Source: a bacterium
GTDB lineage: Bacteria > CLD3 > SB21
Direction of reading: 5' to 3'
DNA length: 58,885 nucleotides
Assembly: GCA_019695335.1 (NCBI GenBank)
Contig: JAIBAF010000016.1
Location: forward strand, 1-58,885
Part shown: positions 4,257-17,266 of the stretch, in pieces
Position numbering within the stretch: the stretch's first letter is position 1
Layout of the letters: every line of letters begins with the position of its first letter
Notes under the pieces: model-generated
Seen by the model: only the letters and a program-made list of their open reading frames with translations
Told to the model about the DNA's origin: nothing
Database searches by the model: none
Made by a program: the position numbers and the translations under genes

Positions 4257-4676
4257 ATGTTAATGCCGAAAAAAGTCAAACACAGAAAGCATCACCGCGG
4301 AAAAATGCGTGGAAAGGCTACTCGCGGTAACGAAGTCAATTTCGGATCGTATGGTTTGAAAGCTATGGAATGCGGCTGGATAACGGCACGTCAGATTGAA
4401 GCGGCACGTATTGCGATGACGCGTTACATCAAGCGCGGCGGTAAAATCTGGATCCGCATATTTCCTGACAAGCCGGTTACAAAAAAACCGCTCGAAGTAC
4501 GTATGGGTTCTGGTAAAGGCGCTCCTGAGTTTTGGGTAGCCGTTATTAAGCCCGGACGTGTCATGTTTGAAATCGACGGTGTAACGGAGGATTTAGCCAA
4601 AGAAGCGTTCCGTTTGGCTGCATTTAAGTTGCCGATTCGTTCAAAGTTTGTCGAACGCGGCGAAATTCGCGCATAA
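4257..4676 (+). CDS. rplP: 50S ribosomal protein L16
   Basis: [19 protein letters not shown] is the classic L16 start, so the ATG at 4257 is kept rather than the ATG two codons later. The body has [29 protein letters not shown] and [19 protein letters not shown]16 organises the A-site tRNA and 5S rRNA region of the large subunit. Length, 139 residues, is standard. It follows rpsC by 43 bases. Confidence 0.98.
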
Positions 4677-4698: not shown

Positions 4699-5091
4699 AT
4701 GAAAGCACATGAAGTACGCGGGTTACCGGTTGAAGAAATGAAGGGCATGCTGGTCGATGCGGAAAATAATCTTTTCGACCTGCGGTTTCAGCATGGCGTC
4801 GGACAATTAGAAAATAAATTAGCGCTTAAAGAAAAACGCAAAGAAATTGCGTTACTTAAAACGATGATCCGCGAAGAAGAAGTCAAAACTGCCATGATCA
4901 AAGCCAAAGACATTTTGAATGCCTTGAGCAGCCAGTACCAGATTTCTGAAGTCGCTGATGTTATCAAGGGTGAAAAAATCCACGCGGATAAAGCAAAATT
5001 GCGTCAGGCACTGACGGTATTGTATGCACATCCTCGGCGTAAAGATTTTGTTAAAGAGTATCAAACTTTAAAAAATATTTTAGTGCGATAA
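4699..5091 (+). CDS. rpmC: 50S ribosomal protein L29 with C-terminal extension
   Basis: The ATG at 4699 follows AGGAGA and gives 130 residues, about twice the usual 60-70. Residues 1-62 look like ordinary L29: an EVRGLPVEEM start, then NLFDLRFQHGVGQLENKLALKE and a lysine-rich helix. Residues 63-130 are an added, mostly helical, charged segment that includes SSQYQISEVADVIKGEKIHA and AHPRRKDFVKEYQTLK. L29 lies at the tunnel exit beside L23. There is no internal stop or start with a good ribosome site, so I read it as one fused chain rather than two genes. The role of the tail is unknown. Confidence 0.9.
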   Translation: MKAHEVRGLPVEEMKGMLVDAENNLFDLRFQHGVGQLENKLALKEKRKEIALLKTMIREEEVKTAMIKAKDILNALSSQYQISEVADVIKGEKIHADKAKLRQALTVLYAHPRRKDFVKEYQTLKNILVR

Positions 5092-6204: not shown

Positions 6205-6849
6205 ATGGCGAAGCAAGAAAAAACAGCGACAAAAGAGAAAAAAGAAAAAAAAGGCGGCGATGGTCTGGCCGTTGCAGGCAAACGTGAAGCTGTAGATAAA
6301 AATTACAAAGCGCGTTTACAGGCCGCTTATAAAGATCGCGTTATCCCTGCGCTAATGAAAAAGTTTACGTACAAAAATCTCATGCAAGTTCCCAAGTTGG
6401 ACAAAATTGTCATCAACATGGGCGTGGGTCAGGCCACGCAGGATCCTAAATTACTTGACGCTGCCGTGCATGACTTGACATTGATTACCGGTCAGAAACC
6501 GGCATTGCGCAAAGCGAAAAAAGCCATCTCGAATTTCAAATTGCGTCAGGGAGTGCCCATTGCATGTTTTGTCACTCTAAGACATGCAGCCATGTATGAA
6601 TTTCTCGATCGGTTGCTGAATGTGGCCATTCCGCGTATCCGCGATTTCAAAGGTGTACCGGACAAATCGTTTGACGGGCGTGGCAACTATACACTTGGTG
6701 TGAAAGAGCAGATTATCTTCCCGGAAATCGATGTTGACAAAATGGATAAAGTGCGCGGAATGGATATCACGATCGTGACTTCCGCCAAGACGGACGAAGA
6801 AGCGTATGAATTGCTCAAAGAATTCGGTATGCCGTTTAGGAAGAAATAA
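6205..6849 (+). CDS. rplE: 50S ribosomal protein L5 with lysine-rich N-terminal extension
   Basis: The L5 core begins near residue 34 ([22 protein letters not shown]) and contains [35 protein letters not shown] and [31 protein letters not shown]5 binds 5S rRNA and forms the central protuberance bridge. The protein is 214 residues, about 35 more than usual, because of a leading segment rich in Lys and Glu ([11 protein letters not shown]). The ATG at 6205 follows an AGAGGAA site, though 15 bases away, so a later start cannot be wholly excluded. Confidence 0.95.
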
Positions 6850-9132: not shown

Positions 9133-9375
9133 ATGAGTTTATTGAAAATTACACAGGTGCGTAGCTTGAACGGTGCTATGGAAAAACATCGTGCAACTGT
9201 CCGCACGTTGGGCCTAAGAAAAATCGGTCAAACTGTTTATCACAACGATACTCCGCAAATTCGCGGAATGGTGGAAAGCGTTCGTTATATCGTGTCGTGC
9301 GAATCGGTCAATGAAAAGCCGAAAGCACAACCCAAAGCCGAAGCCGGATATAAAGTAATCAAAGCTAAAAAGTAA
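9133..9375 (+). CDS. rpmD: 50S ribosomal protein L30
   Basis: The first 60 residues match L30: LKITQVRSLNGAMEKHRATVRTLGLRKIGQTVYHNDTPQIRGMVESVRYIV. A further 20 residues rich in Lys, Pro and Ala (KPKAQPKAEAGYKVIKAKK) extend it to 80. L30 is a small peripheral 50S protein, absent from some bacterial lineages. It lies 27 bases after rpsE and just before rplO. Confidence 0.95.
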   Translation: MSLLKITQVRSLNGAMEKHRATVRTLGLRKIGQTVYHNDTPQIRGMVESVRYIVSCESVNEKPKAQPKAEAGYKVIKAKK

Positions 9376-14036: not shown

Positions 14037-15029
14037 GTGCAAAACTGGGCTGGACTCCAGATGCCGGAGCGCATCGAATTAGACGAATCCACATATACGA
14101 CTACGTATGGCAAATTTATCGTGCAACCGCTGGAAAGAGGTTTTGGCGTCACGATAGGTAATTCGCTTCGCCGCGTATTATTGTCATCGTTGCCGGGTGC
14201 TGCAATTACATCCATCAAAGTCGATGGTGTATTGCATGAATTTTCAACTATACCCGGCGTAGCGGAAGATGTGTCGGAAATCGTTCTTAATTTGAAGAGC
14301 GTTCGTTTTAAATTACACAACAAAAAACCGGACAAAATTGTTGTGCACTTAAAAGGTCCCGGAGCTTTTACTGCCGCCGACGTTCAAAAAGCATCCAATG
14401 GCGTAGACTTTGAAGTGCTCAATCCTGAATTGCATATTGCCACGTTGTCAAAAGAAGCGAATTTTCAAATTGAGCTTCGCATTGGCCGTGGCAAAGGATG
14501 GGTTCCGTCCGAAGAAAACAAATTTCCGGATATGCCGATTGGGACCATTCCGATTGATTCGATTTTCAATCCGATCAAGAATGTTCGCTACACGATCGAA
14601 AGTACCCGCGTCGGTCAACATACTGATTTTGAAAAACTGATCATTGAAATTACAACTGACGGCAGCATTACTCCGGACGACGCATTGACGATCAGTGCCC
14701 GCTTACTCCGTGATCATATTCAATTGTTCATCAATTTTGAAATCGAAGAAGAATCACAGGAAAGCGAACTTGAAGACAAAGAAATTTCCAGAATTCGCCA
14801 AATGCTGAAGATGAGTGTTGATGAGCTCGAATTATCCGTGCGTTCGCATAATTGCTTGCGTGCAGCTGGAATCAAAACTATCGGTGATCTCGTCAGCAAA
14901 AACGAATCTGAAATGCTTAAGTACCGTAATTTCGGACGTAAGTCACTTACGGAACTGAATAAGATTCTGGAAGAGCGCGGAATGCATTTCGGGATGGACG
15001 TTTCGAAGTATTACAACGGCGAAGAATAA
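14037..15029 (+). CDS. rpoA: DNA-directed RNA polymerase subunit alpha
   Basis: I place the start at GTG 14037, eight bases after AAGGAG, which gives 330 residues; a TTG ten codons earlier is unlikely because it precedes that ribosome site. The N-terminal dimerisation domain contains YGKFIVQPLERGFGVTIGNSLRRVLLSSLPG. The C-terminal DNA- and activator-binding domain contains LELSVRSHNCLRAAGIKTIGDLV and YRNFGRKSLTELN. Alpha initiates polymerase assembly and binds UP elements. Length is standard. Confidence 0.98.
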   Translation: MQNWAGLQMPERIELDESTYTTTYGKFIVQPLERGFGVTIGNSLRRVLLSSLPGAAITSIKVDGVLHEFSTIPGVAEDVSEIVLNLKSVRFKLHNKKPDKIVVHLKGPGAFTAADVQKASNGVDFEVLNPELHIATLSKEANFQIELRIGRGKGWVPSEENKFPDMPIGTIPIDSIFNPIKNVRYTIESTRVGQHTDFEKLIIEITTDGSITPDDALTISARLLRDHIQLFINFEIEEESQESELEDKEISRIRQMLKMSVDELELSVRSHNCLRAAGIKTIGDLVSKNESEMLKYRNFGRKSLTELNKILEERGMHFGMDVSKYYNGEE

Positions 15030-15059: not shown

Positions 15060-15623
15060 ATGAGACATGGTAAAAAAGTTGCAAAGCTTGGCAAGACGGC
15101 TTCTCATCGCAAAGCTTTATTAAAAAATCTTTGCAATGAACTTTTCCGCCATAAACGGATTGTAACGACGTTGCCCAAAGCCAAAGCGGCTCGTGGAGCC
15201 GTAGAACGGCTTCTGATGTATGCCAAACAAGGTGATCTTGCTGCACGCCGCATTTTGATCAGCCGTTTAGGAAAGAAAAAACTGCTTTTGACCAATAAAA
15301 ATGTCGATGATAAGAAATTGACTCAACGTACGGTCATTACTGAATTGATCGAAGAAATTGGTCCCAAATTGAAAGAACTTGATACACAACGCCAGACTAA
15401 GAATCCGAAATATACCGGCGGCGGTTATACGCGTGTATTAAAATTGGGCCAGCGTAAAGGCGATGCTGCACATTTGGCGATTTTAGAAATTGTTGGTTAT
15501 GAAAATGTACATATTGATCGTCAAACTAAAGCGGCTGAGGAAAAAGAAGCGAAAGAAAAACGCAAACTGAGCTTGGCCGAACGTATTAAAGCAAAAAAAG
15601 AAGAACTCCAGAAATCGAAATAG
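15060..15623 (+). CDS. rplQ: 50S ribosomal protein L17, long form
   Basis: The chain starts MRHGKKVAKLGKTASHRKALLKNL, followed by the TTLPKAKAARGAVERLL segment and GGGYTRVLKLGQRKGDAAHLAILEIVG. At 187 residues it is about 60 longer than the short form. The extra length comes from an internal insert around residues 70-100 and a charged C-terminal tail (AEEKEAKEKRKLSLAERIKAKKEEL). L17 lies at the base of the 50S near the tunnel exit. It closes the conserved alpha operon. Confidence 0.96.
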   Translation: MRHGKKVAKLGKTASHRKALLKNLCNELFRHKRIVTTLPKAKAARGAVERLLMYAKQGDLAARRILISRLGKKKLLLTNKNVDDKKLTQRTVITELIEEIGPKLKELDTQRQTKNPKYTGGGYTRVLKLGQRKGDAAHLAILEIVGYENVHIDRQTKAAEEKEAKEKRKLSLAERIKAKKEELQKSK

Positions 15624-15651: not shown

Positions 15652-16029
15652 ATGTCGACGAAGAAAAAAGAAGACAAAGAAGAGAAAAAAGCGAAAAAGA
15701 CTGTTTCGAAGAAAAGTGCGGCCAGCAAGCCGGCAAAAGAAAAACATGTCGCCAAAGCTTCCAAATCAGCGCATAGTAAAATTGCCAAAGAAAAACCGGC
15801 TAAAAAAAGTGAAACCGTTACTTCCGCATCAGACGCACAAGTATCTGAAAATGAATTAATGTCGAAAGTGCAATGCTACAATCATGGTAAGAAAACTATC
15901 TGCGCTCATTTGATTTTGGCCACCCATAAATGCACTGCTAAAAGAATCGCTCCGGATCGGTTAGCCACTGTGCGTATCGGAAAAAAACGTCGTTGCGAAT
16001 TCTATGAAGAAACTACGTTTTCAAAATAA
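15652..16029 (+). CDS. Lysine/alanine-rich small protein with Cys/His cluster, unknown
   Basis: I do not recognise this 125-residue protein. Residues 1-55 are a histone H1-like basic tail of Lys, Ala, Ser and Glu (repeats like AKEK, PAKK). Residues 70-125 look folded and contain C75, H78, C84, H86, H92, C94 and C115, a possible metal site. The gene lies 28 bases after rplQ and before the operon terminator, so it is very likely co-transcribed with rpoA and rplQ. A ribosome- or nucleic-acid-associated role fits its charge and place but is only inferred. No matching family comes to mind. Confidence 0.8.
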   Translation: MSTKKKEDKEEKKAKKTVSKKSAASKPAKEKHVAKASKSAHSKIAKEKPAKKSETVTSASDAQVSENELMSKVQCYNHGKKTICAHLILATHKCTAKRIAPDRLATVRIGKKRRCEFYEETTFSK

Positions 16030-16050: not shown

Positions 16051-16087
16051 AAAAGGCAATCAAATTTTTGATTGCCTTTTTTATTTG
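16051..16087 (+). terminator. Rho-independent terminator of the ribosomal superoperon
   Basis: GGCAATCAAA (16055-16064) pairs perfectly with TTTGATTGCC (16067-16076), flanked by A-runs and followed by TTTTTTATTT. This is a textbook intrinsic terminator, 21 bases after the lysine-rich gene and just before the next gene. Confidence 0.93.
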
Positions 16088-16105: not shown

Positions 16106-17266
16106 ATGAGAATTATCTTTTTAACAAGTTGTTGTTTTTTTCTTTCTTTAGATTGTTTGAGAGCAAATAATGAAGGGAAGGCCAAAGCTTTGTGGGTCGT
16201 ACGGGATATTCTGAAATCAAAAAGTACGATTGATCAACTTTTGAACGATGCACACAAAGGGAATTTCACTGACTTGTTTATTCAAGTTCGCGGTCGCGGT
16301 GATGCTTTTTACAACAGCCGGATTTTGCCTAAAGCTGAAGGATTGGCGACCGATTTCGACCCGCTTGCTTACTTACTAGAAAAAGCACACGGACAAAAAT
16401 TTAAAATCCACGCCTGGTTGAATGTTTTTTATGTATGGTCCGCCGAACGTGATCCTTTGAGTAAGGATCACGTCATTTTTGAACATCCGGAATGGAGCGC
16501 TGTTTCAGCGGAGAATTTATCAATGGTGGATGAAGGTACTAATCGTCTGATAGCTAAAAAGTATGAAGGGATATTTCTTTCACCAGGCGATGATGAATTT
16601 CAAAACTCTTTTTTGAATATTATAACGGAATTGTTGGATCACTATCAACTCGACGGTATCCACCTGGATTATATTCGTTATCCTGGGAATCAGTATGATT
16701 ATTCACAGTCAATGCGTTCAAAATTTGTTCTGGAATATGGCCAGGATCCACTGACACTGGATAGTCTTACTAGAAATGCTCAAACAAAAGAAGATATTGA
16801 CCGTTCTGCATGGATCCAAAAAAAATGGTCTGAATTTCGCAGGAACGAATTAACTCATTTTGTTGAAAAAATCTATAACAAGACTAAATCATTAAAATCG
16901 GAAGTGATGGTGACTGCGGCAGTATTTGCTGATTTGGCGGAGGCTCACGATAAAGTAATGCAAGACTGGATTGTATGGCTGCAAAAGGGAATTCTTGATC
17001 AGGCTGTTATGATGAACTATGCAGTGGATCAATTATTATTTGAAAATCGGATACGAGAAGCAAAAACAGCCGCCGGAGATTCGATTTTCTCAAAAAAAAT
17101 TTGGATAGGAGTCGCGATCTATAATCAAAATTCCGCACTTATGCGTGAGAAGATCAAAGCATTGAAAAAATGGAAACCGGCCGGACTGTCTGTGTTTTCA
17201 TACGAGATTATGCGTACCGATCGGAAATATTTCAATGCAGTTATCGATTCAAAACTGTGGCCGTAA
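16106..17266 (+). CDS. Secreted GHL10/YddW-like glycoside hydrolase-like protein
   Basis: This 386-residue protein starts with a signal-like hydrophobic segment (IIFLTSCCFFLSLDC). It continues with ALWVVRDILKSKSTIDQLLNDAH and TDLFIQVRGRGDAFYNS, the pattern of the GHL10 (formerly DUF187) family of TIM-barrel proteins. Further family segments are IHAWLNVFYVW, YQLDGIHLDYIRYPG and VMMNYAVD. Relatives are thought to act on peptidoglycan-derived or other glycans outside the membrane, but the substrate here is unknown. Its stop codon directly abuts the stop of convergent nadB. It follows the ribosomal terminator, so it needs its own promoter, which I could not place confidently. Confidence 0.8.
   Translation: MRIIFLTSCCFFLSLDCLRANNEGKAKALWVVRDILKSKSTIDQLLNDAHKGNFTDLFIQVRGRGDAFYNSRILPKAEGLATDFDPLAYLLEKAHGQKFKIHAWLNVFYVWSAERDPLSKDHVIFEHPEWSAVSAENLSMVDEGTNRLIAKKYEGIFLSPGDDEFQNSFLNIITELLDHYQLDGIHLDYIRYPGNQYDYSQSMRSKFVLEYGQDPLTLDSLTRNAQTKEDIDRSAWIQKKWSEFRRNELTHFVEKIYNKTKSLKSEVMVTAAVFADLAEAHDKVMQDWIVWLQKGILDQAVMMNYAVDQLLFENRIREAKTAAGDSIFSKKIWIGVAIYNQNSALMREKIKALKKWKPAGLSVFSYEIMRTDRKYFNAVIDSKLWP

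Follow-up and report, generated by a model that had tools for sequence, protein, structure and literature searches.

To judge from the accessible portion of one source (PMC10764239), it is still unsettled how proteins come to be added to ribosomes. The closest described counterparts of the protein studied here are the ribosomal proteins bL38, bS22 and bL37, which the available part of their report presents as small, lineage-restricted and missed by annotation (PMC10618245). According to the same part, bS22 and bL38 of Borrelia were unannotated in the genome and were found on imaging the ribosome, with counterparts in Flavobacterium; Borrelia bL38 had been missed with the Flavobacterium sequence, and mass spectrometry was needed (PMC10618245). 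bS22 is described there as highly basic, and Borrelia bL38 as containing beta strands and a row of Lys/Arg residues that touches 23S rRNA. A further parallel is the microsporidian msL1/msL2, a small, basic, lineage-specific ribosomal protein whose authors, in the accessible portion of their text, infer a de novo origin and capture by rRNA (PMC10764239). It belongs to a eukaryotic parasite and may serve as a model for the gain discussed below.

The open reading frame (ORF) at 15652..16029 of the window (the whole 58,885-nucleotide stretch of DNA analyzed) fits the profile of a lineage-specific ribosomal protein (r-protein): its product is small, carries a basic domain, is confined to one lineage and has no convincing match elsewhere among 505 genomes. 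Sequence searches of the PDB listed no bL38, bS22 or bL37, and bL38 is itself sequence-elusive across phyla in the part of the report available (PMC10618245). Unlike these three proteins, which that part describes as seen in ribosome structures, the ORF protein is known from genes alone, and what sets its family apart is the four invariant cysteines and a gene that closes the alpha operon. The reading preferred here, to which we assign a probability of roughly 0.55, is that the ORF encodes a stable, lineage-specific extra ribosomal protein, most likely bound to the large subunit; it would then be a further case of unannotated lineage-specific r-proteins, a kind already familiar.

The ORF and the neighboring features to which it is compared are the following:

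15652..16029, + strand: the ORF, 125 aa with an ATG start, final gene of the r-protein superoperon; homologues lie 3' of rplQ in all seven genomes of the family.
15652..15864, + strand: Lys-rich N-terminal tail, residues 1-71, variable and probably disordered (family length and pI comparison).
15865..16026, + strand: conserved domain, residues 72-125, with invariant Cys75, 84, 94 and 115 and a basic KKRR at 111-114 (alignments; beta-only models).
16051-16080, + strand: terminator-like hairpin of 13 pairs followed by a T tract, 21 nt past the ORF stop.
15060..15623, + strand: rplQ (bL17), with two family-specific insertions at about residues 68-84 and 109-120 (alignment, Pfam).
4699..5091, + strand: uL29, extended by about 60 aa at its C-terminus, as is also the case in a second genus of the family (outgroup comparison).
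6205-6310: Lys-rich N-terminal extension of uL5 (outgroup comparison).
9310-9375: C-terminal extension of uL30 (outgroup comparison).
874-1563: uL4, with 17 internal columns missing from three outgroups.
14067-15029: RpoA (Pfam match).
16106-17266: GHL10 glycosyl-hydrolase-like gene, the next gene after the superoperon (Pfam match).

The ORF begins 28 nt past the rplQ stop and closes a continuous uL3...rpoA-rplQ array with intergenic gaps of -29 to 89 nt; its description in the first-pass annotation as the last gene before the superoperon terminator is borne out by the hairpin and T tract. We take the array to run uL3 (213), uL4, uL23, uL2, uS19, uL22, uS3, uL16, uL29, uS17, uL14, uL24, uL5, uS14, uS8 in its first half and uL6, uL18, uS5, uL30, uL15, secY, map, infA, bL36, uS13, uS11, uS4, rpoA, rplQ in its second. 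These names were mostly assigned by sequence recognition, with Pfam matches for rpoA, bL17 (rplQ), uS14 and two genes past the ORF, GHL10 among them. Read-through from rplQ would match the expression of the ORF to that of the r-proteins, the ORF being presumably co-transcribed with the array and capped by the operon terminator. Promoter-like sites between 14900 and 16300 number 3, against a shuffled expectation of 3.2, and none lies just 5' of the ORF in the same orientation; an independent promoter was rejected on these counts. On a scale contrasting r-protein genes with others, the codon usage of the ORF scores 0.030, compared with -0.019 to 0.033 for 22 r-protein genes (a set without uL29, uL30 and bL36) and -0.063 to 0.010 for 23 long ORFs picked mechanically from the rest of the window. 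The ORF thus falls on the r-protein side of a contrast that is small, codon bias being weak in this genome.

Comparison within the family shows that the ORF is a real gene whose domain is under purifying selection. A homologous ORF follows rplQ after a gap of 19-28 nt in all seven genomes, and a GGC...GCC-TTTTTT element, read by eye in the printed flanks, stands shortly past its stop in each of them. Between the window genome (G000) and its congener G003, the domain has accumulated 26 synonymous and 0 non-synonymous differences, and the tail 21.8 and 24.2, respectively. Between genera, dN is 0.28-0.35 for the domain and 0.25-0.29 for bL17. The pI of the domain lies between 9.6 and 10.0 throughout the family, and the invariant residues include, in addition to the four cysteines (7/7), K80, K81, K97, K111, K112, R113 and R114; the probability that all four cysteines fall by chance among the 20 invariant of 61 columns is about 0.009. 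The shared position, the 26 to 0 ratio of differences and the invariant cysteines together make the ORF more than a chance reading frame. The first-pass annotation had named two findings that would count against its proposal, an absence of homologues in relatives and a lack of cysteine conservation; relatives do carry homologues, and the cysteines are conserved.

The same annotation had described a histone H1-like basic tail followed by a cluster of Cys and His residues. Such a tail is present in the window genome; across the family, however, it is no shared trait, varying from 35 to 73 aa and from pI 6.2 to 9.9, being unalignable between genera and, in one genus, not strongly basic (pI 6.2, 6.2 and 8.0). 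A histone H1-like or other histone-like DNA-binding protein was rejected because the Lys/Ala-rich basic tail is not conserved. In the preferred reading, that of an extra ribosomal protein, the tail would be a disordered extension. As for the cluster, the domain (the C-terminal 54 residues) contains four Cys and three His in the window ORF, and only the cysteine half of the description holds for the family: by reading of the alignment, H78 is found in 2, H86 in 4 and H92 in 6 of the seven members, and none is invariant. The cysteines are spaced as C-x8-C-x9(11)-C-x20-C. A zinc site at these four residues is possible.

Four invariant cysteines in a basic protein encoded at the end of an operon would also suit a regulator, that is, an RNA-binding protein controlling the superoperon and possibly sensing zinc or redox state through the cysteines. 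The spacing contains no CxxC pair, though, no target is known, and the window holds no Rfam structure at the gathering threshold (0 matches, on which count a known RNA element was rejected); we regard such a regulator as quite improbable.

Structural modeling suggests a small all-beta domain. AlphaFold was run twice, on five sequences at a time and with a different one in the lead, and both models consist of beta strands in one common order (mean pLDDT 69 and 66, pTM 0.45 and 0.41). In a Foldseek search with an AlphaFold model, the best E among the matches listed was 1.2. With VIA-align, the highest Z among the matches listed were 4.5 and 4.8, to SH3/Sm-like small barrels, values lower than models lacking a clear match ordinarily attain. 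From these low-confidence models, one may plausibly guess at a small beta barrel. The strand order resembles that of SH3/Sm small barrels such as Hfq, the C-terminal domain of biotin protein ligase and the lipoproteins 2rb6 and 2rd1, but Z of up to 4.5 and 4.8 is within reach of unrelated folds. Hfq is among the matches, at Foldseek E about 2-3 and VIA Z about 3.3-3.7; the ORF model lacks a helix such as that of Hfq, the domain has four invariant cysteines, and Pfam gave no match. Small beta barrels are frequent in ribosomes, according to the available part of PMC11354259. In the mechanism proposed here, the domain would be a small beta-structured unit whose KKRR basic loop, together with the other invariant Lys/Arg residues, binds rRNA.

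The SH3/Sm-type barrels among these weak structural matches include RimP (Z 3.4), which would be compatible with a ribosome assembly factor or a conditional ribosome binder, in which the domain and the basic tail aid the folding of rRNA or of an expanded r-protein such as bL17. The genetic evidence is the same for this alternative as for a ribosomal protein. However, RimP stands among many matches that are just as weak, and a gene that stands last in the main r-protein operon and evolves at about the rate of bL17 is a better fit to a subunit of the ribosome; we consider an assembly factor unlikely.

A different question is whether one of the standard small r-proteins (e.g., bL21, bL31 or bL33) is replaced by the domain as a diverged stand-in that has moved to the operon end. 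When the PDB sequences were searched with the family profile, two bL21 chains came out best (E 0.086 and 0.86), and the domain, like bL21 (PF00829), has a KKRR-like basic stretch after a beta hairpin. Profile-profile comparison with the bL21 alignment (hhalign), however, returned a probability of 0.4% over 27 columns, on which a relationship to bL21 was rejected; Pfam gave no match, and a true bL21 gene lies elsewhere in the genome of the window. Replacement of bL31, bL33 or bL21 was likewise rejected, separate genes being present elsewhere in the genomes: bL31 and bL33 in 9/9 genomes of the phylum and bL21 in 8/9, the lone miss being G005, which is 85% complete. The window itself encodes uS14 (Pfam) and what we take, by recognition, to be bL36. 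With bL21, bL31, bL33, uS14 and bL36 covered in this way, a stand-in appears highly improbable.

Beyond the ORF itself, several proteins of its operon have grown in the same family. In bL17, 29 internal columns are present in all seven members and missing from three aligned outgroups (two genomes of the second family and G205, of another phylum); the C-terminus of bL17 is conserved in the family and SLAERIKAKKEE-like. The corresponding count of internal columns for RpoA, over the same sequences, is one. As a control, 28 proteins of the window operon were compared with up to four outgroup genomes (three in the case of the first twelve genes and two in that of map, otherwise four). Window-only internal columns were most numerous in bL17 (29), followed by uL29 (22), uL5 (21), uL4 (17), uL23 (7) and uS19 (7), and numbered 0-4 in all other operon proteins, with 2 in RpoA. 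Besides its internal columns, uL29 has 39 terminal ones, a count that is in part a start-codon artefact: the TTG start at 4648 chosen by the ORF caller is probably wrong, and the ATG at 4699 fits the homologues. Terminal additions amount to 19 columns in uL30 and 15 in uL15. G005, from a second genus of the family, has the uL29, uL5 and uL30 extensions, and those of uL5 and uL30 are missing from the usable outgroup rows. Judged across one lineage split, the enlargement in this family seems to take in the entire large subunit.

This growth of the large subunit, set against an RpoA of normal length, argues for the ribosome as the place of the ORF protein. Since it is spread over several proteins and seen at a single lineage split, it ties the ORF to no particular site, that of bL17 included. 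The first-pass annotation had left the choice between ribosome and RNA polymerase association open; the additions to bL17 and other large-subunit proteins lean toward the former. A factor that associates with RNA polymerase and is co-expressed with its alpha subunit would agree with the presence of rpoA two genes upstream in the same array, but the direct neighbor is rplQ rather than rpoA, and RpoA has one family-only internal column against 29 in bL17 (2 against 29 in the wider comparison). Such a factor is thus less likely than a ribosomal component and, on our estimate, distinctly improbable.

As far as the searches reach, the protein either arose in one family or is a relic that survives there alone. 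Its identification as a conserved and previously undescribed product of the last superoperon gene, proposed from the window sequence, is upheld by its presence in 7/7 family genomes and by searches of Pfam, NCBIfam and PDB families, which gave no match, and of PHROGs, which gave three weak families only (E 0.036 or worse). No paper on this protein stood among the results listed by literature searches. The homologues sought beside rplQ in related phyla turned up in one family only. Among nine genomes of the phylum, the protein occurs in 7/7 of the same family and in neither genome (0/2) of the second family that represents the class, where no such ORF stands 3' of rplQ. The domain profile was run on 505 different genomes (G000-G504), in sets comprising 386 genomes across the domain, 6 from the phylum of a syntenic genome, and 40 and 82 from two further phyla. 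Its seven convincing matches are all family members; none was obtained among the 498 other genomes, sister family included, and the sets of 6 and 40 genomes gave no match.

Weak profile matches beyond the family appear to be chance. Five of the 386 genomes gave E values of 0.0007-0.0098: one match contains 7 stops, one lies inside a 474-aa ORF (presumably MurF, by recognition) and one inside a 548-aa open frame, and the remaining two cover 28 and 38 residues in frames of 37 and 48 aa. Of the two in the 82-genome set, one spans 28 residues in a frame overlapping a 473-aa ORF and the other contains two stops; all seven were rejected. A scan of an 84,980-species collection with two short seed patterns, which would miss diverged relatives, yielded four loci, all from family genomes (G003, G005, G007 and G008). 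Neither a phage nor a plasmid origin was retained: a viral contig scan gave 69 pattern matches with none confirmed, and tblastn against plasmids gave no match.

Synteny points to how the gene may have arisen. In G205, a GHL10-like gene (L086 2-646) begins 62 nt past rpsD-rpoA-rplQ, and no ORF of this kind separates it from rplQ. Over 205 residues it shares 40% identity with the gene following the window ORF. Because rplQ is directly followed by the same GHL10 gene in G205, the window ORF fills an rplQ-GHL10 gap. The simplest reading is that the gene was gained between rplQ and GHL10 in the ancestor of the family, the alternative being loss in other lineages. In a bolder version of the ribosomal reading, which we hold to be rather unlikely, the ORF would encode a new 50S structural protein with a metal-binding Cys4 beta domain unseen in other ribosomes. 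It would have been gained in this one family during a general 50S remodeling that also includes the two bL17 insertions, the uL29 C-terminal domain of about 60 aa and the extended uL5, uL4 and uL30. As uL29 and bL17 are both situated toward the side of the ribosome with the tunnel exit, such a protein may help to shape the nascent-chain exit.

If the preferred reading of an extra ribosomal protein is correct, the ORF would be a bacterial candidate whose gain can be traced: the corresponding gap is empty in a relative, the ORF is short and under strong selection, and neighboring r-proteins have grown in the same lineage. It would also caution that components of the ribosome may be overlooked when candidate phyla are annotated. 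Should the protein turn out otherwise, there would still be a conserved family without a name, encoded where the main r-protein operon ends.

The rplQ/superoperon-GHL10 synteny is common to the window genome and G205, across phyla. The RpoA of the window is 72% identical to that of G205 and 70% to that of G328, both from other phyla, and 61% to those of the two second-family genomes of its own class. The window RpoA is thus nearer to G205 and G328 than to its own class, whose assignment may need a second look.
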